A stretch of 64,000 nt of DNA from Knoellia koreensis. Lineage in GTDB: Bacteria > Actinomycetota > Actinomycetes > Actinomycetales > Dermatophilaceae. The notes beneath the pieces were generated by a model. That model did no database searches and was not told the DNA's origin. It worked only from the letters and a program-made list of their open reading frames with translations. The position numbers were made by a program, and so were the translations under genes. Location of the stretch: the NCBI RefSeq assembly GCF_013041615.1, contig NZ_JABEPQ010000003.1:310001-374000 (forward strand), given 5' to 3'. Shown here one piece after another: positions 13 to 63,763 of the stretch (its first letter is position 1; each line of letters begins with the position of its first letter).

Positions 13-1530
13 GTGACGGCCCCGCGGCTGGGCGACCAGACCGAGCTGCGCGCCACCGCCTACGTCGGCAACGAGCTGCTCGTGGCCGGGCTGCCCTCGG
101 GGTCGGCGGGGCCCGTGGTCGAAGCCCTGCGCGAGGCACTCGTCGACCGTGACGGTCAGCCGACCGCGGTGGTCGAGGTCAACGAACGCGACGTCGCGGC
201 CGAGCGCGTGATCCGCGAGGTGGGCCTGCCGTCGGTGACGGCCGTGGCGGAGCGGGTCTGGGTCACCCGGGTGCGACTGCTGCCGGTCGCCGAGGCCGAA
301 CCGCAGGTCGACGCCTTCGAGGCGCTGCAACGCCTCAAGTCCACCCGCGCCGACACGTCGACCAGCGCCAGCCTCAACCACGTCGTCGGTGCCGGGGCGA
401 ACTTCCGCGGCACCGCCGTGCCAGGCGACCTCGGTGGTGTCGGGTTCTGGGGAGGCCACGGCGGGGGCGTGGGTTTCTGGGGCGGGCACGGCTTCTGGGG
501 TGGTCACGGAGGACCCGGCGAGTATGCCGCGCCGGGCTTCGGCGGGCGGATGCCGGTCGCGTGGCCGGGCATCGACCCGTGCACCAACGCGCCCAAGCTG
601 GGCCGGCACCCCGTGGTCGCAGTGCCCGATACCGGTCTGGGCCAGCACCCGTGGTTCGAGCCGGGCAAGCGGGCCGCGCTCGCCGCACCGTGGCACGGAC
701 TGCCGCTGGCCGCGCCGGGTCTCGGCAACCCCGACGGCAGCCTGGCCATCGACGCCATGACCGGTGCCCTCGAGCCGCTCGCCGGCCACGGCACCTTCAT
801 CGCCGGCCTGATCCGGCAGGGCTGCCCCGAGGCGTCGATCCTCGCGCTGCCCGTCATGCGCGCGAGCGGGTCGGTCGTCGAGGGCGACCTGCACGAGGTG
901 CTCAGCCTGCTGCTGCTGCGCCACGTCGAGGGCCAGGAGCGCCGCGCACCCGAGCTCGTGATCGACGTGCTCAGCCTGTCACTCGGCTACTACCACGAGA
1001 GCCCGGCCGACGAGATCACCGATCGGCAGTTCCGCAACCTCATCGCCGAGTTCGTCGACCGCGGTGTCGTCGTGGTGGCCGCCGCCGGCAACGACAGCAC
1101 CGAGGAGCGGCTCTTCCCGGCGGGCTTCACCGAGCCGGTGCAGGGCGAGCCCGGCCTGCCGATCGCCGCCGTGGGGTCGCTCAACACCTCGCCGTCGACG
1201 GTGGCCCTCTTCTCCAACGCGGGCACCTGGGTCAACGCCTACCGGCCAGGAGCGGCCGTGGTCAGCACGATGCCCACCAACTTCCAGGGGCCGGGCGGAG
1301 CCAGCACCCAGGTGCCTGCCGGGGCCGCACGCGCCCGGGCCACCATCGACCCCGACGACTACAGCTCCGGCTTCGGCGTCTGGAGCGGCACCTCCTTCGC
1401 GGCGCCGGTCCTGGCTGCGGAGGTCGCGGCCGCCCTCGCCGCCGAGCGCAGCGTGGGCACGGTCTCCGTGGCGTCGATGCGACGCCGCGCCGAGAAGGCC
1501 CTGAGCAAGACACTGGAGGTGAAGCCGTGA
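13..1530 (+). CDS. S8 (subtilase) serine peptidase, 5' end uncertain
   Basis: Serine endopeptidase of the subtilisin fold. The catalytic triad is complete: Asp in VPDTGLG (residue 206), His in GHGTFIAG (259) and Ser in SGTSFAAPV (461), counted from GTG 13. Around residues 141-168 a Gly/Trp/His-rich unit (GFWGGHG) is repeated three times. No signal peptide or membrane segment is visible, so a cytoplasmic location is likely, unlike the exported subtilase at 51163-54459. The frame remains open from GTG 13 back to base 1 and no ribosome-binding site precedes that GTG, so the real start may lie outside the window. The stop codon overlaps the GTG start of the sigma-factor gene, which places the protease in one operon with the sigma factor and the CHAT protein. 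Confidence 0.88.
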   Translation: MTAPRLGDQTELRATAYVGNELLVAGLPSGSAGPVVEALREALVDRDGQPTAVVEVNERDVAAERVIREVGLPSVTAVAERVWVTRVRLLPVAEAEPQVDAFEALQRLKSTRADTSTSASLNHVVGAGANFRGTAVPGDLGGVGFWGGHGGGVGFWGGHGFWGGHGGPGEYAAPGFGGRMPVAWPGIDPCTNAPKLGRHPVVAVPDTGLGQHPWFEPGKRAALAAPWHGLPLAAPGLGNPDGSLAIDAMTGALEPLAGHGTFIAGLIRQGCPEASILALPVMRASGSVVEGDLHEVLSLLLLRHVEGQERRAPELVIDVLSLSLGYYHESPADEITDRQFRNLIAEFVDRGVVVVAAAGNDSTEERLFPAGFTEPVQGEPGLPIAAVGSLNTSPSTVALFSNAGTWVNAYRPGAAVVSTMPTNFQGPGGASTQVPAGAARARATIDPDDYSSGFGVWSGTSFAAPVLAAEVAAALAAERSVGTVSVASMRRRAEKALSKTLEVKP

Positions 1531-2111
1531 GCACCGACGCCACCCCCGTCTCGCTGGCCACGCGCGCGGCAGCCGCGTTCGCGGCATACCGGGCCGGTCA
1601 CGAGGAGCGCATGGACGACCTCGTCGAGCTCCTCACCCCCATCCTGTGGCACACCGCCCGCGCCCAGCGCGCGGACGCCGCCACCGCCGAGGACGTCGTG
1701 CAGACGGCGTGGGTGCGGCTCGTCGAGCGCAGCGACAGCATCAGCGAGCCGCAGGCGGTGCTCCAGTGGCTCATCACCACGGTGCGCCGCGAGGCGTGGC
1801 AGGTGGTGCGTCGGGCCGACCGGGTGCGGCCCGACGAGGACGTGCTCGACCAGGCCGCCCCGGACGGCGACCCAGGGCCCGAGCGGTCGGCCCTGCTGAC
1901 CGAGCAGCAACGCCTGCTCTGGCAGCACGTCGAACAGCTCTCCGCTCGCTGCCGCGAGATCCTGCGCGTCATCGCCTTCGCCGAACGACCCGACTACGCC
2001 GCCGTGGCCAGCGCGCTCGGCATGCCGGTCGGCAGCATCGGCCCCACTCGAGGACGGTGCCTGCACAAGCTGCGCACCAGCCTTCCCTCCGACCTGCGCT
2101 GGACGGTGTGA
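1527..2111 (+). CDS. Sigma-70 family RNA polymerase sigma factor (ECF-like)
   Basis: A 194-residue protein with the two-region layout of ECF sigma factors. A region-2-like segment covers about residues 25-100, with AEDVVQTAWVRLVE matching the DxxQxxxxR helix. A region-4 helix-turn-helix lies at about 135-185 (YAAVASALGMPVGSIGPTRGRCLHKL). I chose the GTG at 1527 because it overlaps the subtilase stop (GTGA), a sign of translational coupling. The next gene begins two bases after the stop. No anti-sigma factor of a known type is adjacent. The coupling with two proteases suggests control by proteolysis rather than by a membrane anti-sigma factor, but that is inference. The overlapping longer open frame upstream is a shadow of the subtilase. 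Confidence 0.85.
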   Translation: MSTDATPVSLATRAAAAFAAYRAGHEERMDDLVELLTPILWHTARAQRADAATAEDVVQTAWVRLVERSDSISEPQAVLQWLITTVRREAWQVVRRADRVRPDEDVLDQAAPDGDPGPERSALLTEQQRLLWQHVEQLSARCREILRVIAFAERPDYAAVASALGMPVGSIGPTRGRCLHKLRTSLPSDLRWTV

Positions 2112-2112
2112 G

Positions 2113-2592: not shown

Positions 2593-5197
2593 GGAGGCGG
2601 CCGACACGCCTGGCGCAGACCCGGCCCACGCCGAGCTGTGGGGCCTCTACGAGCGCGGCGTCGCGGCCAACGACGCCGGGCGACCCCGCGCTGCGCGACG
2701 GGCCCTGGGCTCGGCGCGAGCGCGTCTGGCCGAGCGCGACCTCGACGAAGCGGGCCGACGGCTGCTGGTGCGGGTGCGGTTGGCGCAGGCGCTCGCCGAG
2801 TTCGAGCTGCATGGGCTGGCGACCGCGCAGCAGACCCTTGGGGTGGCGGCCGCGGAGGCCACCGACCTGGGTGACGCGGAGCTCGTCGCGCTCACTCACT
2901 CCCAGCTCGCCATGGCCCGCGGTCGTTCGGGCGACCTGCCCGGTGCCCTCACCGAGCTCGACCACGCGGTCCGGCTGCTGCACCGGTTGCAGCCGCGCGA
3001 CCAGTGGGTGGTGCACCTCAACCGCGGGATGGTGCGCAGCCTGCTGCTCGACGTGCCCGGGGCGCGACGTGACTTCGAGCGCGCCCTCGCGGTCGCCCGC
3101 GCGGCCGACCTCGCGCCACAGACCTACATGGCGATGCACAACCTCGGGTATGCCGCGTACCTCGCCGGCGACCTGCCCCTCGCCCTTCGTCTCATGGGCG
3201 AGGCCGATGCCGTGCCGGTCGAGGTGTCGCGGGCGGTGCCGTACCTCGACCGGGGCCGGGTGCTGCTCGAGGCGGGACTCGTCAGCGAGGCTGAGGCGGT
3301 ACTGGGGCGCGCCCTCGACCTGTGCGTCGACCGCGGTCAGTGGCAGGTGCGCGGCGAGATCGAGCTGGAGCTCGCGCGCGCCCGTGCAGCCCTGGGGCTG
3401 GTGGCACCCGCCCGGGCCCTGACCCGTCGCGCCGAGGCGGTGTTCCGGCGGCGCGGTGCCCCGCTGTGGGCCCACCGCGCCCACCTGCTCACCCTCGGCA
3501 TGACCCTCCAACAGGGCCGATCCGCCTCGTGGGTGGCGACGACGGGCGCGCGGCTCGCCGAGCAGGGGCGCTCGGCCGGGGACGACGCGCTCGAGGCCCA
3601 CGCCTCGCTGCTGGCCGCCCGGGCCGAGCTCGCCACCGGCAACGCGGCGCTCGCGGCGCACCACCTGGCCCGATGCTCGTCGCTGCGCCGGGGCGCGTCG
3701 TTGTCCACCCGGCTCCAGCTCGCCCTGGTGGAGGCCGACCTCGCCGGGCGCGCGGGCGACACCCGGCGGTTCCGCGCCGTCCTGACCCGCGCCGCTCGGG
3801 ACCTGCACCTCGAGGCGGCCCGGTCGGCCAGCATCGACCTGCGCACCGCCAGGTCGGTGCACGGCACCGCACTCGCCGAGCTCGACCTGGCCCACGCGGC
3901 GACGCGCGGGCCGGCCGCCGTGCTCGCCTGCACGGAGCGGTGGCGGGCCGCCACCTCTCGGATGCCTGCGATCGTCCCGCCCGCCGACGAGGAACTGGCC
4001 GCACTGTTGGCCCAGCTGCGCGCCACCGGCCGGCAGGTGATCGACAGCCCCGACCCCAACCCGCGCGAGCTGCGCGCCCAGGAAGCCCGGCTGCGGCAGG
4101 CCGTTCGCGAGCGCGAGTGGCAGCTCCAGTCGGCGGTCGCGGCGGACACCCGGACGCCACGTCGCCCACCGACGATGCGGGCGGCGCGGCTGGCGCAGCT
4201 GCGGTCGGCCCTGGCCGAGCGCGAGACCGACCTCGTGTCGTTCTTCGCGCGCGGCCGCGAGTTGCACGTCGCGACGCTGGTGCGCGGCCGGGCCGGCGTG
4301 CGCCGCGTCGGCACCCTCGCCGAGGTCACCGAGCTGAGCCAGCGGGTCCACGCCGACCTCCAGGCCCTGTCGGCGCACGGTGAAGGCCCCTTGGGCGCCG
4401 CCGTGCGATCCTCCCTCGTCAAGGGGGTGGCTGCACTCGACGCGTCGCTCCTGGCGGAGGTGCGCAGCAGCGACCGGGCACTGGTCGTGGTGCCGACCCT
4501 CGCGGTCTCGCTCGTGCCGTGGGGCCTGCTGCCGAGCCGGCGCGGCGCCCCCACCACGGTGGCCCCCTCCGGCACCGCCTGGCACGCGGGGGCGGTGATC
4601 GTCGACGAACCGCGCGTGGGTGTCGTCGTGGGGCCGGGCCTGCCCGAGGCGGTCGAGGAGGGGCGCGATGTTGCTGGCGCGTGGCACGCGCCAGCGCCGG
4701 CCGGTGCCGGCACCACGGCCGACCTCCAGGCAGCCCTCGCCGGCGGCGACCTCGTGCACATCGCCGCCCACGGCCGGCACGAACCGCAGAGCCCGCTCTT
4801 CTCCTCGGTACGCCTCACCGACGGCACGGTGGTCGCGCACGAGCTCGTCAACCAGGGCACGACTGCCTCGCACGTCGTGCTGTCGGCGTGCGACGTCGGC
4901 CGGTCGACCCTGGCACCGGGCGACGAACCGCTCGGTCTCGCGGCCGCGCTGCTCCAGCTGGGCGTGGCCTCGGTCGTGGCGGCGGTATGCCGCGTGCCGG
5001 ACGACGTGGCGCGGCGCACCATGGCCGGGTACCACCGCCGGCTGGCCGAGGGTCTCGAGGCCTCCGTGGCCCTGGCCGCGGCCACCGACTCCGGCGACCT
5101 GCTCGCCGGAGCGTTCACCGTGGTCGGCTCACCGACCCGCCTGGTCCGGTCGCCCGGTCAGATCCAGAGCGCCGGGTCGCGGAACATCGCCTCATAA
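2555..5197 (+). CDS. TPR-CHAT protein (caspase-like cysteine protease)
   Basis: About 880 residues. Residues about 30-430 are Ala/Leu/Arg-rich helical repeats of the tetratricopeptide type. A helical linker follows, then a C-terminal CHAT domain (about 560-860). The caspase-like dyad is intact: His 739 in HIAAHGRHE and Cys 779 in LSACDVG. CHAT proteases act in cell-death and defence circuits and in the type III-E CRISPR protease. The start is uncertain: GTG 2555 overlaps the upstream gene by 38 bases, and the purine-rich GAGGAGG at 2592-2598 has no ATG or GTG in frame close behind it. The 3' end overlaps the convergent cysE by 40 bases. The gene is the last of the subtilase-sigma-unknown-CHAT operon. 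Confidence 0.87.
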
Positions 5198-5760
5198 GGG
5201 TCCTCGGCCGGACGGTCGGGAAAGCGGACGGTCGCCGGGATGCCCGTGGCAATCGCGCCAGACGGAACGTCTTTCACCACAACGGAATTGGCGCCGATCT
5301 GCACATCGTCACCGATGTAGACGGGACCGAGGACGCGGGCACCGGCGCCGATGGTCACGCGCGACCCGACCGTCGGGTGGCGCTTGACGCGCTCGAGCGA
5401 ACGGCCACCCAGCGTCACCCCGTGGTAGAGCATCACGTCGTCACCGACCTCGGCGGTCTCGCCGATGACGACCCCCATGCCGTGGTCGATGAAGAACCGG
5501 CGGCCGATCCGTGCGGCCGGGTGGATCTCGACGCCCGTGACCGACCGGGTGAACGTCATCAGCAGACGCGCCGCCACGGCATACAACCCTCCGCGCAACC
5601 ACAGGCGGTGCGCGAGCCGGTAGGCCCAGATGGCGTGCAGGCCGGGGCTGTTGAGGAACACGTCGACCCGCGAGCGCGCCGCCGGGTCGCGCACGATCGC
5701 GGCGTCGAGGTCGTCGACGATGCGCGACCGGGCGCGGCTGGCGTGGAAGGCGAGGGTCAT
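5158..5760 (-). CDS. cysE: Serine O-acetyltransferase CysE
   Basis: Makes O-acetylserine from L-serine and acetyl-CoA, the first committed step of cysteine synthesis. The C-terminal left-handed beta-helix is plain from the hexapeptide pattern ([20 protein letters not shown], then [25 protein letters not shown]). Catalytic His residues lie in DHGMG and YHGVTLGG. At 200 residues it is the short bacterial form lacking the long N-terminal helical domain of E. coli CysE. I took the ATG at 5760 because the extra upstream codons of the frame lie inside the cysK tail and show no family similarity. cysK ends 22 bases upstream, so the two genes form a cysK-cysE operon. Its 3' end overlaps the CHAT gene by 40 bases. 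Confidence 0.95.
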
Positions 5761-5782
5761 CGGATTCCGTTGTCTCCCAATG

Positions 5783-6709: not shown

Positions 6710-6773
6710 TGCTTTCCTCGATCGGTATGCCGCGTGGTCGCGGGTGCTGGGTCGCCCGGTAGAGCGAACCTGA

Positions 6774-6802: not shown

Positions 6803-6896
6803 TGTGGGCGCAACGCCGTCCCGGGAGGTGGGCCGTCCGGCCACTCAAGCGAGCAGGCGGTGTCACACTTCCGGCGTGGGCGGACACGACGGGGGT

Positions 6897-7616
6897 ATGG
6901 ACACCTCACCGACCCCCACCACCGACGACGCGGTCGGCGCGCTGCTCACCGCCGCCGCGCCGCCCACCCCACCGATCGCGACCGAGCGAGCTGCCGGACT
7001 CGCCCGCGCCGTGGCCCAGGACGTCGTCGAGTCCGACCGCACGCTTGCCGGCCGGGCGCGTCGCCTGCGTCGCCGGCACAAGGTCGCCGCAGCCGGCGCC
7101 GCGGCCGCCATCGTCCTGGTCCCCACGGGCGCCTGGGCAGCCGAGCACTTCCTCGCCCAGACCGGCCGGTTCGGCAACCCGGTGGCCAACCCGGACTTCG
7201 AGGACCGCTCCGAGTTCATCAACCTGTGCGCCAAGGACTTCCCCGCCTACGTCCGCACGCTGGCCCCGACCGACCTCCCGGCTGCGCCGGGCAAGACGTG
7301 GGACGGGTATGCCGCGGGGCTGGCCGAGCAGTGGGCCGCCGGTGCGGGGTGCGCGCCGTCGGCGCAGGCGGACATGCAGTCGACCAGCCTGCGGCTCGAC
7401 CTGCTCGCCGCGGCCAGCGCAGACTGGGGCTGCGCGCTCGTCTGGGCCACCGAGGACGGCAGGACCGCGCAGGCCCGCACCGCCCGCACCGCCATGCTCG
7501 ACCTCGATGCCGCAGCCCGACGGCTGGCCACGATCGAGGGGTCGGTCGGCACCCAGGACCCCGACACCTTCCTCGCCAACAGCAGGCTGCCGCAGTGGGT
7601 CGGGTGCCCGCGATGA
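6897..7616 (+). CDS. Membrane-anchored unknown protein coupled to an ECF sigma factor
   Basis: A 239-residue protein with a cytoplasmic N-terminal segment of about 60 residues ending in a basic run (RARRLRRRHK), one transmembrane helix (about 63-83, VAAAGAAAAIVLVPTGAWAA) and an exported C-terminal part with several Cys and Trp residues. This is the topology of a membrane anti-sigma factor, and its stop overlaps the start of the sigma-factor gene (ATGA). It shows no recognisable zinc-anti-sigma HxxxCxxC motif, so the anti-sigma role rests on topology and context. I chose ATG 6897 because upstream in-frame codons look non-coding. The gene is divergent from cysK. Confidence 0.7.
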   Translation: MDTSPTPTTDDAVGALLTAAAPPTPPIATERAAGLARAVAQDVVESDRTLAGRARRLRRRHKVAAAGAAAAIVLVPTGAWAAEHFLAQTGRFGNPVANPDFEDRSEFINLCAKDFPAYVRTLAPTDLPAAPGKTWDGYAAGLAEQWAAGAGCAPSAQADMQSTSLRLDLLAAASADWGCALVWATEDGRTAQARTARTAMLDLDAAARRLATIEGSVGTQDPDTFLANSRLPQWVGCPR

Positions 7617-8206
7617 GTTCGAGCCCGACGACGGCAACCCCGGCCGAGCGCCGACTCGAGGAGCTCGCGAGCGCCCACGGGCCGCGGGTCCTGGCCTACC
7701 TCGCCCGGCGCACCGACCCGCCTGCCGATGCCGCCGACGTCCTCCAGGAAGTGCTCACAACCGCCTGGCGCAAGATCCACCACGCGCCCGACGACCCCGA
7801 CCACGCGATCGCCTGGCTGCTGGCCATCGCCCGCCGCGCGAGCGCCAACCACCGCCGGTCAGCCCACCGGCGGCACGCGGCGACGCAGCGACTGCGAGCC
7901 GAGCTCGCGGCATACCCTCCGCTCGCGCAGCCGACAGACCCGGGCGGCTACGCACACGACGACGTCCGCACGGCCCTCGCCACGCTCGGCGACGGCGACC
8001 GCGAGCTGCTGGAGCTGACCTACTGGGACGGGCTGACGGGCGAACAGGTCGCCACGGTCGTCGGCGCGAGCCCGCCCGCCACCCGCAAACGGATCCAGCG
8101 AGCGCGCGACCGGCTGGCGGCGGCGCTGGCCGATGAGCGGGCCACCCCACCCGTCGACCAGGCACGCAGCACCCCGACGCGAGGTGCGGTGAGCGTCACA
8201 ACCTAG
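7613..8206 (+). CDS. ECF-type RNA polymerase sigma factor
   Basis: A 197-residue sigma-70 family protein. Region 2 is at about residues 20-85 (DAADVLQEVLTTAWRKIHHAPD, split here as DAADVLQEVLTT and AWRKIH). Region 4 is at about 115-165 (LLELTYWDGLTGEQVATVVG followed by the recognition helix PPATRKRIQRARDRL). The ATG overlaps the stop of the preceding membrane protein. The C-terminal 25 residues are a low-complexity tail. The pair is independent of the sigma factor at 1527-2111 and the two proteins are not close paralogues by eye. EtfD begins 36 bases downstream, but whether it is co-transcribed cannot be judged. Confidence 0.88.
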   Translation: MSSSPTTATPAERRLEELASAHGPRVLAYLARRTDPPADAADVLQEVLTTAWRKIHHAPDDPDHAIAWLLAIARRASANHRRSAHRRHAATQRLRAELAAYPPLAQPTDPGGYAHDDVRTALATLGDGDRELLELTYWDGLTGEQVATVVGASPPATRKRIQRARDRLAAALADERATPPVDQARSTPTRGAVSVTT

Positions 8207-8242: not shown

Positions 8243-10627
8243 ATGTCTGCGCTCCAGGTCGTCGCCCTCGTGGTGACCATCCCCGTGACGCTCGTGGCGG
8301 TCGCGTTGTTCGTCCGCACCATCAACCGGTCGTTCGTCGCGACGTTCAAGCTCGGCCAGCCCGACCACTCGCGCACGAACGACCCGGGCCGGCGCACGCT
8401 GACGCTGGTCCGCGAGTTCCTCGGCCACACGCGCATGTCGCGGCTGCCGGTCGTTGCGGTGGCGCACTGGTTCACCATGATCAGCTTCGGCGTGCTGTTC
8501 TTCACGCTGGTCAACGCGTTCGGCCAGCTGGTCAGCCCGGAGTGGACGCTCCCCCTCATCGGCCACTTCCCGCCGTACGAGTGGGTCACCGAGTTCTTCG
8601 CCTGGACCGGCCTCGTTGGCATCCTCACGCTGATGGCGATCCGGCAGCTGAAGAAGCCGAGCCGCGCGCAGGGCGAGGGCGGCCGCCGGTCCCGCTTCTT
8701 CGGGTCGACGTTCTGGCAGGCCTACTACGTCGAGCTCACCATCCTCGGCGTCACCCTGTGCATTCTCACCCTGCGCGGCCTCGAGTACGCGCTCGGCAAG
8801 GCCACCGGCGCAGACACCGCCACCGCACTGCACTTCCCGATGACCGCGTGGCTCGGCGGGCTCTTCGACGGCCTGTCGGTCAGCGCCCTCGAGAACGCCA
8901 TCGTCGTCGTCGCGGCCGTGAAGATCCTCATCTCGTTCGCGTGGATGATCACCATCGCGCTCACGCCGACGATGGGTGTTGCGTGGCACCGCTTCCTCGC
9001 GTTCTTCAACATCTGGTTCAAGCGTCACGCCGACGGCCGCACGTCGCTCGGCGCGCTCCAGCCGATGCTCGTCGACGGCAAGCCGCTGGACTTCGAGAAC
9101 ATCGAGGAGCTCGACGAGGACGCCGCGCTCGGCGTCGGCAAGGTCGAGGACTTCACCTGGAAGGGCCTGCTCGACTTCACCACGTGCACCGAGTGCGGCC
9201 GCTGCCAGAGCCAGTGCCCGGCGTGGAACACCGACAAGCCGCTGTCCCCCAAGCTGCTCATGATGACGCTGCGCGACAACGTCCACGCGCGCGCCCCGTG
9301 GCAGCTCGCGTCCGAGTCGGCCCGCGCCGAGATGGGCGAGGACGCGGCCAAGCTCCAGGAAGTGCCCCTCATCGGAGACACCGGGTATGCCGCGTCCGCC
9401 GCCAAGGGCGGGGACGGCACCCATGGCGTCGTCCCCGACATCGGCGCGCTCGCGGCATACAACCCGCACGGCCCCGACGCGGTGATCGACCAGGACGTCC
9501 TGTGGTCGTGCACCACCTGTGGCGCGTGTGTCGAGCAGTGCCCGGTCGACATCGAGCACGTCGACACGATCGTGGACATGCGCCGCTACCAGAACCTCAT
9601 CGAGTCGGCGTTCCCGTCCGAGCTCGGCGGCCTGTTCAAGAACCTGGAGAACAAGGGCAACCCGTGGGGCATGAACGCCCGCGCGCGGATGGACTGGGCC
9701 AAGGACCTGCCGTTCGAGATCAAGGTGCTCGGCCAGGACGTCGAAAGCGCCGACGACGTGGACTACCTGTTCTGGGTGGGCTGCGCCGGCGCCTACGAGG
9801 ACCGCGCCAAGAAGACCACCCGCGCCGTGGCTGAGCTGCTCGACCAGGCGGGGGTGACGTTCGCGATCCTCGGCGACGGCGAGACCTGCACCGGTGACTC
9901 GGCCCGCCGAGCCGGCAACGAGTTCCTCTTCCAGATGCTGGCGCAGCAGAACGTCGAGACGCTCAACGAGGTCGGCGCGACCAAGATCGTCGTCACGTGC
10001 GCGCACTGCTTCAACACGATCAAGAACGAGTACCCGCAGCTCGGCGGCAAGTACGAGGTCGTGCACCACACGCAGCTGCTCAACCGGCTCGTGCGCGAGA
10101 AGAAGCTCGTGCCCGTCGCCCGCCCGGCCGAGGTGCCGGGCAAGTCGAGCAACAAGAACGCCGCCTCCACCGCGGAGTCCGTGACCTACCACGACCCCTG
10201 CTACCTGGGCCGCCACAACGGCGTCTACGCCCCGCCGCGTGAGCTGATCGGGGCCCTGCCCGGTGTCGAGCTCAAGGAGATGGAGCGCACCAAGGAGAAG
10301 TCGTTCTGCTGCGGCGCCGGCGGTGCCCGCATGTGGATGGAGGAGAAGCTCGGCACGCGGATAAACGTCAACCGCACCGAGGAGGCCATCGGCACCGGCG
10401 CCGAGCGGATCGCCATCGGCTGCCCGTTCTGCCGGGTCATGCTGAGCGACGGCCTCACCGCTGCCCAGTCCGAGGGTCGCGGCGAGGACGTCGAGGTTGT
10501 CGACGTCGCCCAGATGCTGCTCGCCGCGGTCAAGCGTCCCGAGCCACCGGCCGAGGACGCCGCTGCCGAGCCCGAGCCGTCGGACCCGGCACCGTCCGAC
10601 CCCGACCCGGCACCCCAGCCCGCCTGA
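8243..10627 (+). CDS. etfD: Membrane Fe-S oxidoreductase, EtfD-like (heterodisulfide reductase family)
   Basis: A 794-residue protein matching the mycobacterial EtfD type (Rv0338c), which passes electrons from acyl-CoA dehydrogenases through ETF to membrane quinone. The N-terminal third has five or so membrane helices (NarG gamma-like). Two [4Fe-4S] motifs follow, CTECGRCQSQCP (about 315) and CTTCGACVEQCPV (about 423). Two cysteine-rich CCG domains come next, with VGCAGAY, TCAHCF, CCGAGGARMW and GCPFCRVML. The last 40 residues are a Pro/Glu/Asp tail. I took ATG 8243 because the hydrophobic N-terminus starts there. It is convergent with the LuxR gene, two bases apart. The acyl-CoA dehydrogenase at 29651 is a plausible electron donor through ETF. 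Confidence 0.85.
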   Translation: MSALQVVALVVTIPVTLVAVALFVRTINRSFVATFKLGQPDHSRTNDPGRRTLTLVREFLGHTRMSRLPVVAVAHWFTMISFGVLFFTLVNAFGQLVSPEWTLPLIGHFPPYEWVTEFFAWTGLVGILTLMAIRQLKKPSRAQGEGGRRSRFFGSTFWQAYYVELTILGVTLCILTLRGLEYALGKATGADTATALHFPMTAWLGGLFDGLSVSALENAIVVVAAVKILISFAWMITIALTPTMGVAWHRFLAFFNIWFKRHADGRTSLGALQPMLVDGKPLDFENIEELDEDAALGVGKVEDFTWKGLLDFTTCTECGRCQSQCPAWNTDKPLSPKLLMMTLRDNVHARAPWQLASESARAEMGEDAAKLQEVPLIGDTGYAASAAKGGDGTHGVVPDIGALAAYNPHGPDAVIDQDVLWSCTTCGACVEQCPVDIEHVDTIVDMRRYQNLIESAFPSELGGLFKNLENKGNPWGMNARARMDWAKDLPFEIKVLGQDVESADDVDYLFWVGCAGAYEDRAKKTTRAVAELLDQAGVTFAILGDGETCTGDSARRAGNEFLFQMLAQQNVETLNEVGATKIVVTCAHCFNTIKNEYPQLGGKYEVVHHTQLLNRLVREKKLVPVARPAEVPGKSSNKNAASTAESVTYHDPCYLGRHNGVYAPPRELIGALPGVELKEMERTKEKSFCCGAGGARMWMEEKLGTRINVNRTEEAIGTGAERIAIGCPFCRVMLSDGLTAAQSEGRGEDVEVVDVAQMLLAAVKRPEPPAEDAAAEPEPSDPAPSDPDPAPQPA

Positions 10628-13296: not shown

Positions 13297-13340
13297 AGGC
13301 GGGGTATGCCGCGGCGCTGGCTCCGCGGCATACCCCGCCT
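13297..13340. terminator. Hairpin built from an inverted GTATGCCG pair, behind the osmoprotectant operon
   Basis: An 18-bp perfect inverted repeat (arms 13297-13314 and 13323-13340, loop of 8) lies 25 bases beyond the stop of the substrate-binding-protein gene. Each arm contains GGGGTATGCCGCGG, so the stem is formed by two opposed copies of the dispersed 8-mer. Position suits a terminator; the lack of a T run is usual in high-GC actinobacteria. Confidence 0.7.
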
Positions 13341-29439: not shown

Positions 29440-29564
29440 GGGACGCGAGTATGCCGCCTGCTCGCCGACCGTGCCGCGCGGGCTCTCGCGACCCGCTGGG
29501 TCGGCACTGCGGGCCGCGCCGGATCGGCCGTACGGGTGGCGTGACGCACAGGGGCTTGCATTCG

Positions 29565-32491: not shown

Positions 32492-32528
32492 AGAACTACC
32501 CGTCGAGGCGACCACGCGGCATACCAAA

Positions 32529-39773: not shown

Positions 39774-39790
39774 CATCTCGTGCTAGTTGT

Positions 39791-49554: not shown

Positions 49555-50604
49555 TCAGGAGAGCTGGGACTGGGTGCGCCAGAGGTCGATGCCGGCCTCG
49601 ACGGCGTCGCGGTCGATCGTGGCCAGCTCCTCCTTGGTGAAGCTCAGGTTCTTCACGGCCGCGGCCGAGTCCTCGAGCTGGCCGACACTGGAGGCGCCGA
49701 TGAGCACCGAGGTGACCCGCTCGTCGCGCAGTGCCCACGCCAGCGCCATCTGGGCGAGCGTCTGCCCGCGCGAGGCGGCGAGGTCGTTGAGCCCCCGGAT
49801 GTGCGCCAGCGCCTCGTCGGTGAGCAGGTCGGGCGACAGCGACTTGCCGGCCGCCGCCCGCGACCCCTCGGGTATGCCGCCGAGGTACTTGTTCGTGAGC
49901 ATCCCCTGGGCGAGTGGGCTGAACGCGATGCACCCGATGCCCTCGCGCCCGAGCACCTCGAGCAGCCCGCCCTCGACCCAGCGGTTGAGCATCGAGTAGC
50001 TCGGCTGGTGGATGAGCAGCGGCACGCCCATGTCGGCGAGGATCTTGCGTGCCTTGTCGGTGAGCTCGGGGCCATAGCTGGAGATCCCGGCATACAACGC
50101 CTTGCCCTGCTTGACGATCGAGGCGAGTGCGCCCATCGTCTCCTCGAGCGGGGTGTCCGGGTCGGGCCGGTGGCTGTAGAAGATGTCGACGTAGTCGAGC
50201 CCGGTGCGCTTCAGGGTCTGGTCGAGGCTGGCGATGAGGTACTTGCGCGAGCCGCCGTCGCCGTAGGGGCCGGGCCACATGTCCCAGCCGGCCTTGGAGC
50301 TGATGATCAGCTCGTCGCGGTAGGGCCGGAAGTCGCGGGCGAAGTGGACCCCGAAGTTGCGTTCGGCTGCGCCGTAGGGCGGGCCGTAGTTGTTGGCCAG
50401 GTCGAAGTGCGTGATGCCCAGGTCGAACGCGCGGCGCAGGATGTCGCGCTGGACGTCCATCGGCTTGTCGTCGCCGAAGTTGTGCCACATGCCAAGGCTC
50501 ACCGCCGGCAGCCGCAGACCGGAGTGGCCGACCTGCCGGTACGGCATCCGACCGTCGTAGCGCTCGGGGCTCGCGACGTAAGGGGGCAACCAGGTCTCGA
50601 CCAT
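49555..50604 (-). CDS. Aldo/keto reductase (YghZ/AKR14-like)
   Basis: A 349-residue NADPH-dependent reductase with the AKR tetrad: Asp in HFDLANNYGPP, Tyr in the same segment, Lys in IISSKAGWDMW and His in IFYSHRPDPDTP. The opening (WLPPYVASPERYDGRMPYRQ) and length match the YghZ or L-glyceraldehyde-3-phosphate reductase branch, which detoxifies methylglyoxal-type aldehydes. ATG 50604 was chosen because the similarity begins there. A rare ATA codon lies in its GTATGCCG copy (49872). Confidence 0.93.
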   Translation of the reverse strand: MVETWLPPYVASPERYDGRMPYRQVGHSGLRLPAVSLGMWHNFGDDKPMDVQRDILRRAFDLGITHFDLANNYGPPYGAAERNFGVHFARDFRPYRDELIISSKAGWDMWPGPYGDGGSRKYLIASLDQTLKRTGLDYVDIFYSHRPDPDTPLEETMGALASIVKQGKALYAGISSYGPELTDKARKILADMGVPLLIHQPSYSMLNRWVEGGLLEVLGREGIGCIAFSPLAQGMLTNKYLGGIPEGSRAAAGKSLSPDLLTDEALAHIRGLNDLAASRGQTLAQMALAWALRDERVTSVLIGASSVGQLEDSAAAVKNLSFTKEELATIDRDAVEAGIDLWRTQSQLS

Positions 50605-50671
50605 GCAGGCAGTATGCCGGTGGGCCGGCCGGGTGGGCGCGCCGACCGGTGTCATGGTGAACGATGGGGGC

Positions 50672-54618: not shown

Positions 54619-55512
54619 TTACTCGGCGGCGCGACCGATGGCGCGCAGCCGCGTCACGGTGCGCCGCACCACGGCCCGCTCCGCCCGGTCGGGGCGCGAC
54701 AGCGCGACTACCCACCGTTTGGCGTTGACACCGCGCAGTGGCCGCAGCACCACGTCGTCGTCGACGAGGGTGGTGAACCGGGGCAGCATCGCGATGCCCG
54801 CGCCCGTGGCGACGTAGGAGCGCACCAGCCGGTTGTCGCGCAGGCGCTGGGCGACGTGGGCGGGTCGTCCCGCGGAGCGCTCCACCGCCTCGAGCAGCGT
54901 CGCGAACGGGTAGCCGGTCGGGACCCCGATCCAGGTCTCGTCGACGACGTCGCGGGGGTTCAGGATCTCCTTGCGCGCCAGCGGGTGCCGAGCGGGAAGG
55001 GCCACGTCGATCGGCTCACGCGCGAGCACCCGGTGGGCGAGGGTGCTCGCGTCGGCGGGCACCGGTCCGGCGAGGCTGTGGCCGATGACGATGTCGTGGT
55101 CGGCGGCCCACCGGGCGTAGTCGCCCTCGGACACGTCGATGTCGGTCAGCTCGACCTCGATGCCTTCGGCGGCCAGCTCGCCGGTGACCGCGGGCAGCAG
55201 GAACTCGGCGGCGCTCGCGAGCGCCGCGATCCGCACCGTTCCGACGGGCCGCCCGCGGAACTCGTCGAGCCGCGCCTGCACGGCGGCGAGAGTTGCCTCG
55301 ACGTCGCCGGCCGCCTCCGCAAGCAGTCGCCCCGCGTCGGTGAGGCGTATGCCGCGTCCGGCCGGCTCGACGAGGCGCACCCGAAGTGCCCGCTCGGCGG
55401 TGCGCAGCTGTTGCGATACCGCGCTGGGGGTGCGGTGCGTGGCCTGCGCGACCGCGGCCACGCTCCCCCGGTCCGCGAGCTCGCGCAGGAGCGACAGGTG
55501 CCGGACATCCAT
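54619..55512 (-). CDS. LysR-family transcriptional regulator
   Basis: A 297-residue LysR-type regulator. The N-terminal winged helix-turn-helix (about 1-60) reads VAAVAQATHRTPSAVSQQLR, and a periplasmic-binding-like effector domain follows (VRIAALASAAEFLLPAVTGE onward). It begins MDVRHLSLLRELAD at ATG 55512. It is divergent from the EamA transporter gene, 134 bases away, and the classic LysR arrangement implies it controls that transporter. The gap 54460-54618 behind it shows nothing notable. Confidence 0.93.
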   Translation of the reverse strand: MDVRHLSLLRELADRGSVAAVAQATHRTPSAVSQQLRTAERALRVRLVEPAGRGIRLTDAGRLLAEAAGDVEATLAAVQARLDEFRGRPVGTVRIAALASAAEFLLPAVTGELAAEGIEVELTDIDVSEGDYARWAADHDIVIGHSLAGPVPADASTLAHRVLAREPIDVALPARHPLARKEILNPRDVVDETWIGVPTGYPFATLLEAVERSAGRPAHVAQRLRDNRLVRSYVATGAGIAMLPRFTTLVDDDVVLRPLRGVNAKRWVVALSRPDRAERAVVRRTVTRLRAIGRAAE

Positions 55513-56648: not shown

Positions 56649-57652
56649 CGACGGACGGTCAACCCCGCCTCCTGCGCCGCCTCGGCGAAGGCAGCCGACC
56701 GCTCCCCCAGCCCGAACCACACGAAGTTGGCCTCGGTGTCGGGGATGAACCAGCCCTGGCCGCGCAACGCCTCGACGACCCGGGTGCGTTCTGCCACAAG
56801 GGAGTCCACGCGTTCCTTGAGCTCGTCGTACGCCTCCAGCGACGCCACGGCGGCTGCCTGCGCGATCGAGTTGACCCCGAACGGCACGGCCGTCTTGCGC
56901 AAGGCCTGGGCCACCGGCTCGTGCGCCACGGCATACCCCACTCGCAGTCCGGCCAGGCCGTAGGCCTTGCTGAAGGTGCGCAGCACCATGACGTTCGGGC
57001 GCTCGCGGTAGAGGTCGATGCTGCGCGGGGCGTCGTCGCCGGTGACGAACTCGACGTAGGCCTCGTCGATGACGACGAGCACGTGGTCGGGGACGTCGTC
57101 GAGGAAGCGCTCGAGCTCGGTGTGGGTCACCATCGGCCCGGTCGGGTTGTTGGGCGTGCAGACGATGACGACCTTGGTGCGGTCGGTGATCGCCGCACGC
57201 ATTGCGTCGAGCCGGTGGCGCGCGTGGTCATCGAGCCCGACCTGGACGCTGTTGGCGCCCGCGAGCGCCGTCACGATCGGGTAGGCCTCGAACGAGCGCC
57301 ACGCGTAGACGACCTCGTCGCCCGGGTCGCAGAGCGCCTGGATGACCTGGCCGAGGACGCCCACCGAACCCGTGCCCGTGGCGATGTGCTCGGCCGGCAC
57401 CCCGAGCTTGTCGGCGAGCGCCTGGGTCAGCCCGGTGACTGCCATGTCGGGGTAGCGGTTGATGCCGCCGGCCGCCTCGTGGATGACATCGACGACCGAG
57501 GGAAGCGGCGAGTACGGGTTCTCGTTGGAGGAGATCTTGTATGCCGTGACGCCCTCGGGCGCGGCCGCGGGCTTGCCGGGCACGTAGGCGGGGACCTGGT
57601 CGAGGGCCGCGCGCAGGCGGACGCCGGGAAGGTTCGGGGCGCTGTCGCTCAT
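56540..57652 (-). CDS. pat: Histidinol-phosphate/aromatic aminotransferase (Pat type)
   Basis: A 370-residue class I/II PLP aminotransferase. The PLP Lys is in [16 protein letters not shown]. Also visible are [11 protein letters not shown] at the N-terminus, [11 protein letters not shown], and the Asn/Asp/Tyr cofactor residues in CTPNNPTGP and IDEAYVEF. The AWRSFEAYP segment and overall pattern resemble mycobacterial Pat (HisC2), which makes phenylalanine or tyrosine from aryl pyruvates. A plain HisC role cannot be excluded, since no his genes are near. ATG 57652 is preferred over a start 33 bases upstream that lies within an inverted repeat. Confidence 0.9.
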
Positions 57653-57722: not shown

Positions 57723-57766
57723 GCGGCGGGCGGCATACGTGACCGTGGCGGCGCGTTGACCACCAC

Positions 57767-59307: not shown

Positions 59308-59354
59308 CGGGTATGCCGGGAGGTGGGCACCGCGCCCACCTCCCGGCATACCCG
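59308..59354. terminator. 21-bp perfect hairpin from an inverted GTATGCCG pair, in a divergent gap
   Basis: Arms 59308-59328 and 59334-59354 are fully complementary with a 5-base loop, and each arm holds GGGTATGCCGGG. It lies between two genes that point away from each other, so neither ends here. It may stop antisense transcription running through the small membrane-protein gene from the monooxygenase, or act in a leader. Confidence 0.6.
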
Positions 59355-59435: not shown

Positions 59436-59864
59436 ATGAGCGACGCCGAGCCGGCCCCCGAGGGCACCCCTGACCTGACCATGGTCCGCCGGATGTGGGC
59501 CGACGACCGTGCGAGCCGGGCGCTCGGCATGGACGCGCGCACCATCGAGCTCGACCACGCGGTCGTCGCGATGCCCGTCACCGAGGACATGGTCAACGGG
59601 CACGACATCGCCCACGGCGGCTACATCTTCACCCTCGCCGACTCGACCTTCGCCCTCGTCTGCAACTCCGGCGGGCGCCCGACCGTCGCGGCGGGCGCGG
59701 ACGTCACGTTCATCGCGGCGGCGCGGCTCGGCGACGTCCTCGTGGCCGAGGGACGCACGCGTGCGGCATACGGACGCAGTGGCCTCACCGACGTGACGGT
59801 GACCCGCGAGTGCGACGGCGCCGTCATCGCGGAGTTTCGCGGGCGGTCGCGAAACCTACGCTGA
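59436..59864 (+). CDS. PaaI-type hotdog thioesterase
   Basis: A 142-residue hotdog-fold thioesterase that hydrolyses aryl- or hydroxyaryl-CoA esters, as in the phenylacetate pathway. The motif DIAHGGYIFTLADSTFAL holds the catalytic HGG region. MVRRMWADDRASRALGMDA opens the fold. ATG 59436 was chosen over longer frames that belong to the monooxygenase shadow. No other paa gene is near. The two palindromes directly upstream imply its own regulation. Confidence 0.9.
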   Translation: MSDAEPAPEGTPDLTMVRRMWADDRASRALGMDARTIELDHAVVAMPVTEDMVNGHDIAHGGYIFTLADSTFALVCNSGGRPTVAAGADVTFIAAARLGDVLVAEGRTRAAYGRSGLTDVTVTRECDGAVIAEFRGRSRNLR

Positions 59865-60683: not shown

Positions 60684-60721
60684 GTATGCCGTGTGGTCGC
60701 CGTGGCGACCACACGGCATAC
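60684..60721. terminator. 18-bp hairpin from an inverted GTATGCCG pair, between cyclophilin and galE
   Basis: Arms 60684-60701 and 60704-60721 are perfectly complementary, each beginning or ending with the 8-mer. It is placed as the terminator of the cyclophilin gene and stops only nine bases before the galE start codon. Confidence 0.75.
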
Positions 60722-60730
60722 TCATGCATC

Positions 60731-61747
60731 ATGCGAGTCCTCGTCACCGGCGGCGCCGGGTACATCGGGTCCCACACCGTCGTCCAGCTGGCAGCCGCAG
60801 GCCACGAGGTGGTGGTCGTCGACAACTTCAGCAACGCCAAGCCGACCGTCGTGCCGCGGCTCGAGACGCTGATCGGCGGGCACCTGGAGGTGCACGCGTT
60901 CGACCTCACCGACCGCGACAAGACCGAGGCGTTGTTCGCGCAGCGGCAGTTCGACGCGGTGATCCACTTCGCCGGGCTCAAGGCGGTCGGCGAGAGCACC
61001 GAGGTGCCGCTGGAGTACTACCAGAACAACCTCGACTCGACCTTCGCGCTCGTCCGGGCGATGCAGCGGCACGGGTGCTTCACGCTCGTGTTCTCGTCGT
61101 CGGCGACGGTCTACGGCGAGAGCGCCCAGCCGCCGTTCGCCGAGGACCTGCCGACGTCGGCGACCAACCCCTACGGCTGGACCAAGGTCATGCAGGAGCA
61201 GATCCTGCGCGACGTCGCCCGCACCGACGAGCGGTGGCGGATCGCGTTGCTGCGCTACTTCAACCCCGTGGGGGCACACTCGTCCGGCACGATCGGCGAG
61301 GACCCGAACGGCATACCCAACAACCTCATGCCGTTCATCGCCCAGGTCGCCGTCGGCAAGCTGCCCGAGCTCAAGGTGTTCGGCGACGACTACCCCACGG
61401 CCGACGGCACGGCGCTGCGCGACTACATCCACGTCGAGGACCTCGCCGCCGGGCACCTCGCGGCGCTGACTCGGCTCGGCGCGGTCGACGACCGGGTGTC
61501 GACGTGGAACCTCGGCACCGGCCACGGCACCTCGGTGCTGGAGGTGCTGCACGCGTTCGAGCGGGCCGCCGGTCGCGAGCTGCCCTACGAGGTGGTGGGC
61601 CGTCGCGCCGGTGACATCGCCGCGTCGTTCGCCGACCCGTCGCTTGCCGAGCGCGAGCTGGGCTGGAAGGCGACGCGCGACATCGACGACATGTGCGCCG
61701 ACCAGTGGCGCTGGCAGAGCCAGAACCCGCTGGGCTACCCGGACTGA
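60731..61747 (+). CDS. galE: UDP-glucose 4-epimerase
   Basis: A 338-residue short-chain dehydrogenase-type epimerase that interconverts UDP-glucose and UDP-galactose. The NAD loop is VTGGAGYIGSHTV (about 4-16), the SSS-catalytic block VFSSSATVYGES, and the YxxxK pair in NPYGWTKVMQEQ. NPVGAHSSGTIGEDP and the LRDYIHVEDLA motif are GalE hallmarks. The conserved N-terminus MRVLVTGG fixes ATG 60731, yet the hairpin of the previous gene ends nine bases before it, leaving no ribosome-binding site. A leaderless transcript from CATACT at 60717-60722 is possible. Confidence 0.95.
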   Translation: MRVLVTGGAGYIGSHTVVQLAAAGHEVVVVDNFSNAKPTVVPRLETLIGGHLEVHAFDLTDRDKTEALFAQRQFDAVIHFAGLKAVGESTEVPLEYYQNNLDSTFALVRAMQRHGCFTLVFSSSATVYGESAQPPFAEDLPTSATNPYGWTKVMQEQILRDVARTDERWRIALLRYFNPVGAHSSGTIGEDPNGIPNNLMPFIAQVAVGKLPELKVFGDDYPTADGTALRDYIHVEDLAAGHLAALTRLGAVDDRVSTWNLGTGHGTSVLEVLHAFERAAGRELPYEVVGRRAGDIAASFADPSLAERELGWKATRDIDDMCADQWRWQSQNPLGYPD

Positions 61748-61750
61748 CGG

Positions 61751-63763
61751 CTAGCCGGCACCGAGGGCGGGCTCGCTGCGCGACGGCTTGCCGTTCTCGA
61801 GGTGGCCGGCAAAGGCACGCAGGTATGCCGTGCCCGTCACCGTGACGGTGAGGTCGTACCAGCCGGCTGCAGCGCGGGTGTCGACGGTGGTGACCCGTCC
61901 CTTGGTCGGCACCGTCCCGGCATACCCGTCGTGGATGGTCACCTCCACGCCCGTGGGTGCGTCGACCTCGATCCGCAGGACGTGGCTCTGGCCGGAGCGA
62001 ACCACCTTGACCTGCACCGGATCCGGCACGGAGGCGTCACCGCGGTAGCGGCGGAAGAACCCGTTGGGGCCGTGCAGGTGCACGTCGTACTCGCCGGTGA
62101 CGGGGAAGGACGCGTCGACGCTCTTGCCGGCGCCGACCGTGTAGGCGTGCGGCTGTCCGGCCGGCGCGATGAGCCGGGCCTGCAGGTGCGCGGCCAGGGT
62201 GCCGGTGTTGCGCAGGTTCAGTGCGATGGCGCCCGCGGTCCGGCGCTCCTCGACGTCCAGGGCGTAACCGATGGGCCGCGCGGGGCGGGTGCCCGGCTCC
62301 TGCCTCGGCATCTGCCCCTGGGCCGGCGGCACCGGCCGGTAGCTCGGGTGCCGTCCGTCGTCGGCAGGCTTCCACGCGTCGGTGCTGGGCAGGGCCGGGA
62401 CCTTGGCAGCGGTGCGGGAGAAGTCGAAGGCGGAGGTGAGGTCACCACAGATGGCGCGGCGCCACGGCGTGATGTTGGGCTCCTCGACGCCGAACCGCTC
62501 CTCGATGAACCGGATCACCGAGGTGTGGTCGAAGGTCTCGGAGCAGACCCAGCCGCCGGTGCTCCACGGCGAGACGACGAACATCGGGACGCGCGGGCCG
62601 AGGCCGTAGCTGCCCGGACCGTGGCGGCCGTCGTAGAACTCGTGGTCCGTGGGGACGGTCGACTCGCCCGGGATCACCGGGGACGGAGCGTGCGGCGGGA
62701 CCAGGTGGTCGAAGAAGCCGTCGTTCTCGTCGTAGGTGATGAACAGCGCGGTACGGCTCCACAGGTCGGGGTTGGAGGTCAGGGTGTCGAGGACCTTGCT
62801 GAGGTACCAGGCGCCGTAGTTGGTGGGCCAGTTCGAGTGCTCGCTGAACGCCTCGGGCGCGGCGATCCAGCTCACGGACGGGAGCGTGCCGGCATCGACG
62901 TCACGCTGGAGCTGGGCGAAGTAGTCCTCGCCGTCGCGCGCCTTGGTGCCGCGACGGGCCTTCTCGTACAACGGGTTCCCGGGCTCGGCGTTGCGGTACT
63001 TGTTGAAGTAGAGAAGGGAGTTGTCGCCGTAGTTGCCGATGTAGGCGTCCGACGTCCAGCCCCAGGAGCCGGGACCGTCGAGACCGGTGCCCTCGTCCTG
63101 GTAGACCTTCCACGACACCCCGGCCTGCTCGAGCCGCTCAGGGTAGGTCGTCCAGTCGTAGCCGAGCTCGTCGTTGTAGAGGACGGGACCGCCGCCCTTC
63201 CCGTCGTTGCCGGTCCAGCCCGACCACAGGTAGTAGCGGTTGGGGTCGGTGTTGCCGATGAACGAGCAGTAGTAGGCGTCGCAGACGGTGAAGGCGTCGG
63301 CGAGCGCATAGTGGAAGGCCGCGTCCGCGCGCTCGAGGTAGGCCATCGTCGTGGTGCCCTTGGCCGGCACCCAACCGTCGTAGTGCCCCTTGTTGACCGC
63401 GGCCTGGCCGTCGGTCCAGCTGTGCGGCAGGCCCTCGAGGAACTGGGCGCCGAGGTCCTCGGCGGTCGGGTGGAACGGCAGGTACTCGCGACCGTTCTTG
63501 ACCTGGTGCCATACCGACTTGCCGCTGGGCAGCTGCACCGGGTGCGGGTCGCCGAAGCCGCGCACGCCGCGGAGCTTGCCGAGGTAGTGCTCGAAGGACC
63601 GGTTCTCCTGCATGAGGACCACGACGTGGTCGACGTCGCGGATCGAGCCGGAGGTTCGGGCGGCGGGGATGGAGGCCGCGCGGGCGATGCTCTGGTCGAG
63701 CATGGTCAGGGCGGCGGCGCCACCAGCGATCTGCAGGAAGCGGCGGCGGTCGATGTTCACCAT
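61751..63763 (-). CDS. Tat-exported phosphocholine-specific phospholipase C
   Basis: A 670-residue phosphoesterase that cleaves phospholipid head groups outside the cell. The Tat signal is IDRRRFLQIAGGAAAL with cleavage after ARA. The PLC/acid-phosphatase-like catalytic domain (about 40-480) has HVVVLMQENRSFEHYLGKLR, NDGFFDHLVPPHAPS and TFDHTSVIRFIEERFG. Two C-terminal DUF756 domains (about 500-665) complete the standard layout. GGAGG precedes ATG 63763; a longer frame upstream is non-coding. Convergent with galE, three bases apart. No phosphate-regulation site was recognised. Confidence 0.93.
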   Translation of the reverse strand: MVNIDRRRFLQIAGGAAALTMLDQSIARAASIPAARTSGSIRDVDHVVVLMQENRSFEHYLGKLRGVRGFGDPHPVQLPSGKSVWHQVKNGREYLPFHPTAEDLGAQFLEGLPHSWTDGQAAVNKGHYDGWVPAKGTTTMAYLERADAAFHYALADAFTVCDAYYCSFIGNTDPNRYYLWSGWTGNDGKGGGPVLYNDELGYDWTTYPERLEQAGVSWKVYQDEGTGLDGPGSWGWTSDAYIGNYGDNSLLYFNKYRNAEPGNPLYEKARRGTKARDGEDYFAQLQRDVDAGTLPSVSWIAAPEAFSEHSNWPTNYGAWYLSKVLDTLTSNPDLWSRTALFITYDENDGFFDHLVPPHAPSPVIPGESTVPTDHEFYDGRHGPGSYGLGPRVPMFVVSPWSTGGWVCSETFDHTSVIRFIEERFGVEEPNITPWRRAICGDLTSAFDFSRTAAKVPALPSTDAWKPADDGRHPSYRPVPPAQGQMPRQEPGTRPARPIGYALDVEERRTAGAIALNLRNTGTLAAHLQARLIAPAGQPHAYTVGAGKSVDASFPVTGEYDVHLHGPNGFFRRYRGDASVPDPVQVKVVRSGQSHVLRIEVDAPTGVEVTIHDGYAGTVPTKGRVTTVDTRAAAGWYDLTVTVTGTAYLRAFAGHLENGKPSRSEPALGAG

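Follow-up and report, generated by a model that had tools for sequence, protein, structure and literature searches.

We found that the octamer GTATGCCG, which occurs at about one copy per kilobase in a 64-kb stretch of Knoellia koreensis DNA (contig NZ_JABEPQ010000003.1, positions 310,001 to 374,000; hereafter the window), tags each DNA strand separately, because copies in the same orientation avoid each other over approximately 1–1.5 kb whereas copies in opposite orientation do not. The octamer is far more abundant than composition predicts, is exact, is conserved in the congeners closest in dialect, varies between genera by single-base dialects, and is absent from two mobile elements. We tentatively propose, with confidence a little short of even, that in many Dermatophilaceae GTATGCCG functions as a polar tag of self DNA, and that its likeliest mechanism is Chi-like.

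A recount of the window gave 67 copies (34 on the + strand and 33 on the - strand) spanning 522 to 61925, in agreement with the initial annotation, a reading of the sequence alone that had likened the octamer to a DNA uptake sequence (DUS). We ran Markov models on the window and on 904 kb of the same genome. In the window, orders 0–3 predicted 2.2, 1.0, 1.4, and 4.0 copies, an excess of 17- to 67-fold that brackets the approximately 30-fold first estimated. Orders 4–6 predicted 19.5, 46.4, and 66.0 copies, and so nominally explain the count, because the sub-words of the octamer hardly exist outside it (67 of 68 occurrences of TATGCC and 67 of 69 of GTATGC in the window lie within GTATGCCG). 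The possibility, raised at the outset, that sub-words account for the octamer thus leaves an excess at orders 0–3 and succeeds at orders 5 and 6 only in a circular sense. The 904-kb sample behaved alike, with 859 copies versus 14–43 expected at orders 0–3 (20- to 60-fold) and 221, 594, and 838 expected at orders 4, 5, and 6. The signal extends beyond the window: the whole 4.28-Mb genome carries 3,986 copies (1,983 + and 2,003 -), compared to 114 copies (54 + and 60 -) of a control word with the letters reversed. As first described, copies lie both in genes and between them, at 0.85/kb in coding and 1.54/kb in intergenic DNA, with genes called by a purpose-made simple caller.

The strand balance of GTATGCCG hides a polarity. 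Across 904 kb, same-orientation pairs occurred at 0.32, 0.52, 0.54, 0.52, and 0.85 of expectation at distances of 60–250, 250–500, 500–750, 750–1000, and 1000–1500 bp, and at 1.04 beyond, whereas the ratios over the same five bins were 1.26, 1.19, 1.12, 1.26, and 1.01 for convergent pairs and 0.90, 0.98, 1.27, 1.14, and 1.00 for divergent pairs. When orientation labels were permuted with positions held fixed, 186 of the 625 pairs at 60–1000 bp were in the same orientation versus 312.5 expected (z = -10.1), and none of 5000 permutations was as low. Other genomes gave the same direction of effect, with 4 of 5000 permutations as low in G058 (scored on the dialect GGATGCCG), 1 in G151 (scored on GTATGNCG), 14 in G017, and 132 in G099. 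In G058, same-orientation pairs below 1 kb numbered 106 versus 176 expected (0.60), with 81 convergent and 78 divergent pairs versus approximately 87 expected for each. Neighboring copies were opposite in orientation in 608 of 858 cases across the 904 kb (including three pairs that span the end of a block), and the window gave 49 of 66. In a control band of ten octamers that includes the motif, none of the other nine showed comparable avoidance, and their lowest same-orientation ratio was 0.97.

This effect was alike in all gene contexts: for copies inside one gene, in two genes of the same direction, in genes of opposite direction, and outside genes, the same-orientation fraction lay between 0.26 and 0.37. 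The effect therefore acts on DNA. We infer that the motif works separately for each strand or each direction and that its influence extends over approximately 1 kb. No long-range strand bias was seen in the window's genome, whose origin was not located: each of seven 100-kb blocks held 39–55 copies per strand. These data do not support the initial argument that strand balance speaks against Chi, since balance conceals repulsion between same-orientation copies. They also led us to drop even spacing alone as support for a DUS, as the evenness proved to lie within orientation. An excess of inverted pairs was likewise set aside as the main feature: pairs closer than 60 bp number 3 in the window and, across 904 kb, 20 in the '+-' and 10 in the '-+' arrangement versus approximately 12 each when scaled from the next distance bin, so that the intergenic hairpin pairs originally pointed out do exist but hold few copies.

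The octamer is kept in exact form. The 24 words that differ from it by one base totaled 320 in 504 kb (635/Mb), compared to approximately 730/Mb in three motif-free relatives, showing no enrichment in total and suggesting an exact reader. Among single words, GAATGCCG (28 versus 4 per Mb in the relatives) and GCATGCCG (109 versus 58) were raised, and GTACGCCG (62 versus 129) and GGATGCCG (143 versus 204) were lowered. Given a simple mutation-selection or mutation-drive balance, the ratio of exact to neighboring words implies an approximately 45-fold preference for the exact form. The 126 isolated intergenic copies share the consensus GGTATGCCGCGTGG, in which the base after the core is never A and the 3' flank is one-sided; the core first given as usual, GGTATGCCGCG, is a fair description of context but is complete in just 17 of the 67 window copies. 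GTATGCCG also overrides codon preference. The 676 coding copies include 322 read as G-TAT-GCC-G (Tyr-Ala) and 223 read as CG-GCA-TAC (Ala-Tyr), and the motif accounts for 322 of the 544 TAT codons in the sampled genes and for 223 of their 235 GCA-TAC pairs in frame. Genic copies show a slight sense surplus (376 sense and 300 antisense).

Comparison with nine congeners showed that 90 of 188 aligned copies were kept exactly, versus 16–27% for control octamers. Exact retention was 50–69% in G001, G002, G003, G005, and G008 and 27–36% in G006, G007, G009, and G010, genomes with fewer copies. Among 25 losses by a single mismatch, 6 were a C to G change at position 6, yielding GTATGGCG.

Within C1:1-540,000, six intervals longer than 5 kb are free of the motif. 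Two are gaps of approximately 10.9 kb (C1:129482-140334 and C1:192321-203216; loci L013-L014, L016, and L167), one with a serine recombinase and the other with a phage-type integrase. Another carries a ribosomal RNA operon, and the remaining three, from translations judged by eye, hold genes for transporters, genes for secreted proteins, and, in the last, an Rhs-like fragment. Because the gaps include the ribosomal RNA operon and transporter genes, not every gap is mobile DNA; depletion of GTATGCCG in mobile DNA holds for the two recombinase-bearing elements in 904 kb of one genome.

We then turned to relatives, as the initial annotation had advised, and found that the signal operates at the level of the family. 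Counts of GTATGCCG across 159 Dermatophilaceae genomes are bimodal. Motif-rich genera include that of the window, whose 11 genomes each hold 625–3,986 copies, and many others, with a maximum of 4,724 copies in G017, while 18 genera classed as poor hold 7–149 copies per genome and genera g20, g21, and g69 fall in between (153–322). Classes (93 rich, 58 poor, and 8 low genomes) were assigned by genus except for G100 and G152, and the rich class takes in genomes using GGATGCCG as well as G133 (404 copies). The two exceptions depart sharply from their congeners: G152 has 37 copies versus 1,251–1,660 in four congeners, and G100 has 19 versus 1,062 and 3,681 in two. Loci with the motif come from Pedococcus, Knoellia, Janibacter sp. 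HTCC2649, and Intrasporangium oryzae, and loci without it from several Phycicoccus, Intrasporangium flavum, and Nostocoides sp. Soil756. No count exceeded 167 in 22 genomes from other families of the same order, and none of 290 genomes of the class outside Dermatophilaceae was comparably enriched (maximum 386 copies in 7.5 Mb, where the reversed word had 176). In families f22 and f38, many genomes carry GTATGCCG at about twice the reversed-word control, probably owing to composition.

Dialect changes consist of one base and are mostly stable within genera. The form GGATGCCG reaches 4,480 copies in G132, 3,619 in G146, 2,195 in G075, and 2,099 in G109 (all genus g65), 3,816 and 3,838 in g17, and 3,949 in g48; the next-highest genome, G011, has 1,336 and G160 has 1,210, both exceeding most genomes. 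These GGATGCCG genomes retain 40 copies of GTATGCCG in g48, 235–361 in g17, G132, and G146, 1,217 in G075, and 1,189 in G109. A second one-base dialect is GTATGNCG, found for example in G151. Position 6 is relaxed in other genomes, with GTATGDCG present at 3,273–5,477 copies in five g49 genomes, 3,747 in g4, and 2,147 in g5; it numbers 738 and 746 in the window's congeners G006 and G007 and 107 in the window's genome, where its reversed control has 313.

We found no hidden dialect of the poor genera in 80–100 kb of G011, G016, and G019 or in 20 kb each of G018, G068, G071, G072, G100, G113, G152, G153, and G177, a search that a weaker or longer word could escape. GTACGCCG is a candidate dialect of G079 and Nocardioidaceae, but several CGNCGTAC words rise jointly in Nocardioidaceae, as codon use would cause. 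The locus word scan took expected values as trimmed means over mostly 20-kb loci with a floor of 0.15 for rare words, and because of this floor six neighbor words flagged in the window's genome are no evidence of enrichment. The loci L126, L118, L120, and L052 (G128) carry a relaxed form, GTATGACG, at 5–7 copies per approximately 17–22 kb with hardly any expected; L126 is labeled as a Nocardioidaceae metagenome-assembled genome and may represent a mislabeled bin or a second family. L069 (G005) and L088 contain a short repeat that includes CGGACTGACC, at 14–15 copies per approximately 20 kb, near the ComEC locus of Pedococcus bigeumensis.

Surveys of RecC, AdnA, PDDEXK_1, ComEC, ComEA, T2SSE-type ATPases, and PilM revealed no gene that tracks the motif and no pilin-type receptor. 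RecC was present in 28 of the 93 rich genomes, compared to 32 of 58 in the poor class and 5 of 8 in the low class, and RecBCD was rejected as the reader given that 65 of the 93 motif-rich genomes are without RecC. If anything, RecC is commoner in the absence of the motif (species counted singly, odds ratio 2.9 with Fisher p=0.0035; genus majorities, odds ratio 4.5 with p=0.028; phylogeny ignored in both). The window's genome does encode RecC (G000:C10:305703-306716), which is absent from the other 10 searched genomes of its genus, perhaps through a recent gain of RecBCD, and in genus g56 the motif-free G152 is the sole RecC carrier of five genomes (versus G066, G103, G128, and G144). At locus L237 of the window's genome, two adjacent genes, one at 3890-7042 (-) and the other assigned to 438-3899 (-), encode proteins that match the A and B chains of structures 6ppj and 6ppr (E values of 1e-149 and 1e-182), which we take to be AdnA and AdnB of the mycobacterial AdnAB. 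AdnA was found in all 30 genomes searched, motif-rich and motif-poor alike.

Competence genes, which the initial annotation had suggested looking for, are present without being linked to the motif. ComEC occurs in 155 of 159 genomes, and its four misses (G061, G064, G065, and G115) are motif-rich assemblies that are 58–95% complete; ComEA occurs in all 19 loci examined and a T2SSE-type ATPase in 158 of 159 genomes, both regardless of the motif, and PDDEXK_1 proteins occur in all 159. As near-universal genes, ComEC, ComEA, T2SSE-type ATPases, PDDEXK proteins, and AdnA were discarded as the cause of motif presence or absence, as were type IV pili of the PilM type, a marker found in just 5 of 159 genomes.

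We place the Chi-like reading first because directional resection needs coverage in each direction, which matches the observed spacing. An enzyme that unwinds and resects DNA from a double-strand break would encounter the octamer in just one of its orientations, possibly in single-stranded form, whereupon it would cease destroying the DNA and pass it to recombination. Since a break has two ends, separate sets on the two strands are expected, each strand requiring its own evenly spaced copies, and selection or biased recombination may maintain each strand on its own at approximately one copy per 2 kb. The likeliest candidate reader, as a guess, is AdnAB, the helicase-nuclease of the window's genome. 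GTATGCCG resembles the Chi sequences of RecBCD in E. coli and AddAB in B. subtilis in being a short, exact, non-palindromic, over-represented word with one-base dialects, in its probable dependence on orientation as judged from spacing, and in being missing from the two mobile elements examined. Chi dialects that differ by one base among relatives are described in Proteobacteria (PMC8022716), and two papers state that it is not known whether a Chi-like sequence controls AdnAB (PMC4824097; PMC13309787).

Several observations weigh against this proposal. GTATGCCG is unpolarized over long blocks, unlike E. coli Chi (PMC8022716), and its excess is far stronger than that of E. coli Chi, for which 1,008 copies are reported versus 151 expected (PMC1939737). 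It is not tied to RecC, whose distribution rules out RecBCD, the reader of E. coli Chi, and the presence of AdnA does not predict the motif, as poor genomes also have it. Polarity is weakest in G099 (132 of 5000 permutations), which is retained in every count, and opposite-orientation pairs below 1 kb in G058 are also slightly short (approximately 0.9). Finally, the step from polarity to Chi is an inference. More broadly, we see the chances as evenly balanced that the octamer belongs to a system that tags each strand and differs both from classical uptake sequences and from a Chi of the RecBCD type, being either an unpolarized Chi read by AdnAB or an asymmetric strand mark. We know of no earlier system of this kind in Actinobacteria and of no Chi for AdnAB.

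A directional reader of the Chi type fits the polarity better than does an uptake sequence read without regard to orientation, since a reader blind to orientation, whether in double-strand uptake or nucleoid binding, should cause all copies to avoid each other, which is not so in the window's genome. We nonetheless regard as unlikely, though deserving of serious attention, a strand-specific uptake sequence for natural transformation, in which the tag must sit on the strand that is imported or recombined. The initial DUS-like reading is borne out by the genome-wide and family-level distribution, the density, the dialects, and the absence from two elements, and fits less well with the orientation-specific spacing, which a classical DUS would not predict. 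As in the DUS of Neisseriaceae and the uptake signal sequence (USS) of Pasteurellaceae, GTATGCCG combines approximately one copy per kilobase, an extreme excess, one-base dialects that mostly follow genera, genic and intergenic copies with intergenic enrichment, inverted pairs, and absence from the recombinase-bearing elements (traits reported in PMC3630211, PMC1939737, and PMC7811141); it is balanced between strands overall, as reported for DUS and USS (PMC1939737), and ComEC and ComEA are at hand. Yet uptake in Haemophilus influenzae is reported to be independent of sequence orientation (PMC1939737), and we reason that, under any uptake model that lets either strand bring in the locus, convergent copies should avoid each other as well. 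No such avoidance is seen in the window's genome, where their ratios below 1 kb are 1.12–1.26, and the ratio in G058 is approximately 0.93. One-mismatch forms are not enriched in total, although this trait varies among uptake sequences: such forms are enriched in Actinobacillus pleuropneumoniae (947 versus 86; PMC1939737) and add just 21% to the exact copies in Kingella oralis (PMC3630211). The hosts of GTATGCCG are Gram-positive and nearly all without the type IV pilus marker, and Com genes occur in motif-poor genomes too. We know of no DNA uptake sequence in Actinobacteria.

An asymmetric target of one-strand DNA modification, with marks that label each strand as old or new in mismatch repair or as self or foreign, would require each strand to have its own evenly spaced copies as well as an exact reader, and could shift its dialect by one base; we judge it quite improbable, though still a live rival. 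HIP1, a cyanobacterial octamer over-represented in many but not all members of its group, is reported to be tied to methyltransferases (PMC4390886), but unlike GTATGCCG it is palindromic and so without orientation. The distribution of GTATGCCG is mostly steady within genera, unlike that of mobile modification systems, and only one of the five C-to-T products, GTATACCG, exceeds its level in motif-free relatives (4 in 504 kb versus 0 in 240 kb), which therefore gives little sign of 5-methylcytosine. No modification site known to us is enriched to this degree. Even spacing and genome-wide spread would suit a binding site for a nucleoid or segregation protein, which we consider very improbable, because a double-strand binder should ignore orientation, whereas clear avoidance is limited to copies in the same orientation. 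FtsK-orienting polar sequences (KOPS) are read in one direction and are strand-biased along each replichore; GTATGCCG shares the octamer length of KOPS and other FtsK-type motifs, but a directional segregation signal of this kind should show the strand bias over long blocks that GTATGCCG lacks. We give almost no credence to a by-product of composition or codon usage. Coding copies do favor two frames (322 and 223 of 676), but this account is refuted by the spacing and by an excess that is larger between genes than within them; it is also at odds with the 20- to 60-fold excess at Markov orders 0–3, the absence of the motif from sister genera of like GC content, and the overriding of codon preference.

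Copies of GTATGCCG in the 64-kb window, by position, strand, and context.
Position	Strand	Context
522..529	+	genic
1582..1589	-	genic
3148..3155	+	genic
4985..4992	+	genic
5577..5584	-	genic
6725..6732	+	intergenic
7307..7314	+	genic
7908..7915	-	genic
9385..9392	+	genic
9453..9460	-	genic
11089..11096	-	genic
13304..13311	+	intergenic, inverted pair left arm
13326..13333	-	intergenic, inverted pair right arm
14491..14498	-	genic
16250..16257	+	genic
17258..17265	+	genic
17683..17690	+	genic
18238..18245	-	genic
18869..18876	-	genic
20804..20811	+	genic
21484..21491	-	intergenic
23201..23208	-	genic
23780..23787	-	genic
25412..25419	+	genic
27025..27032	-	genic
27921..27928	+	genic
28276..28283	+	genic
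28528..28535	+	genic
29178..29185	-	genic
29449..29456	+	intergenic
30585..30592	-	genic
30724..30731	+	genic
32517..32524	-	intergenic
33253..33260	+	genic
35621..35628	-	genic
36383..36390	+	genic
36836..36843	+	genic
37534..37541	-	genic
38552..38559	+	genic
39532..39539	-	genic
39789..39796	+	intergenic
40571..40578	-	genic
42471..42478	+	genic
42663..42670	+	genic
43717..43724	-	genic
45197..45204	+	genic
46248..46255	+	genic
46316..46323	-	genic
48502..48509	-	genic
49872..49879	+	genic
50088..50095	-	genic
50612..50619	+	intergenic
51408..51415	-	genic
52111..52118	+	genic
53685..53692	-	genic
55347..55354	+	genic
56929..56936	-	genic
57539..57546	+	genic
57731..57738	-	intergenic
59311..59318	+	intergenic, inverted pair left arm
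59344..59351	-	intergenic, inverted pair right arm
59764..59771	-	genic
60684..60691	+	intergenic, inverted pair left arm
60714..60721	-	intergenic, inverted pair right arm
61309..61316	-	genic
61823..61830	+	genic
61918..61925	-	genic

In the openly licensed literature, we found no paper on this motif, in searches that also covered uptake sequences in Actinobacteria, new uptake sequences, transformation in Dermatophilaceae, Chi in Actinobacteria or with AdnAB, and motifs of Intrasporangiaceae. GTATGCCG offers a ready test of the open question of whether AdnAB is controlled by a Chi-like sequence, for which the dialects and motif-free sister species provide natural controls. Should it prove to serve uptake instead, it would be the first such signal known to us outside two Gram-negative families and a key to transforming these bacteria. 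Comparing spacing within orientations with spacing across them could assist in classifying further orphan motifs that occur genome-wide, and motif-free stretches could help to locate young mobile DNA in Dermatophilaceae. If strand-by-strand tagging is true, the family would possess a code that evolves in dialects and that whole genera lack.

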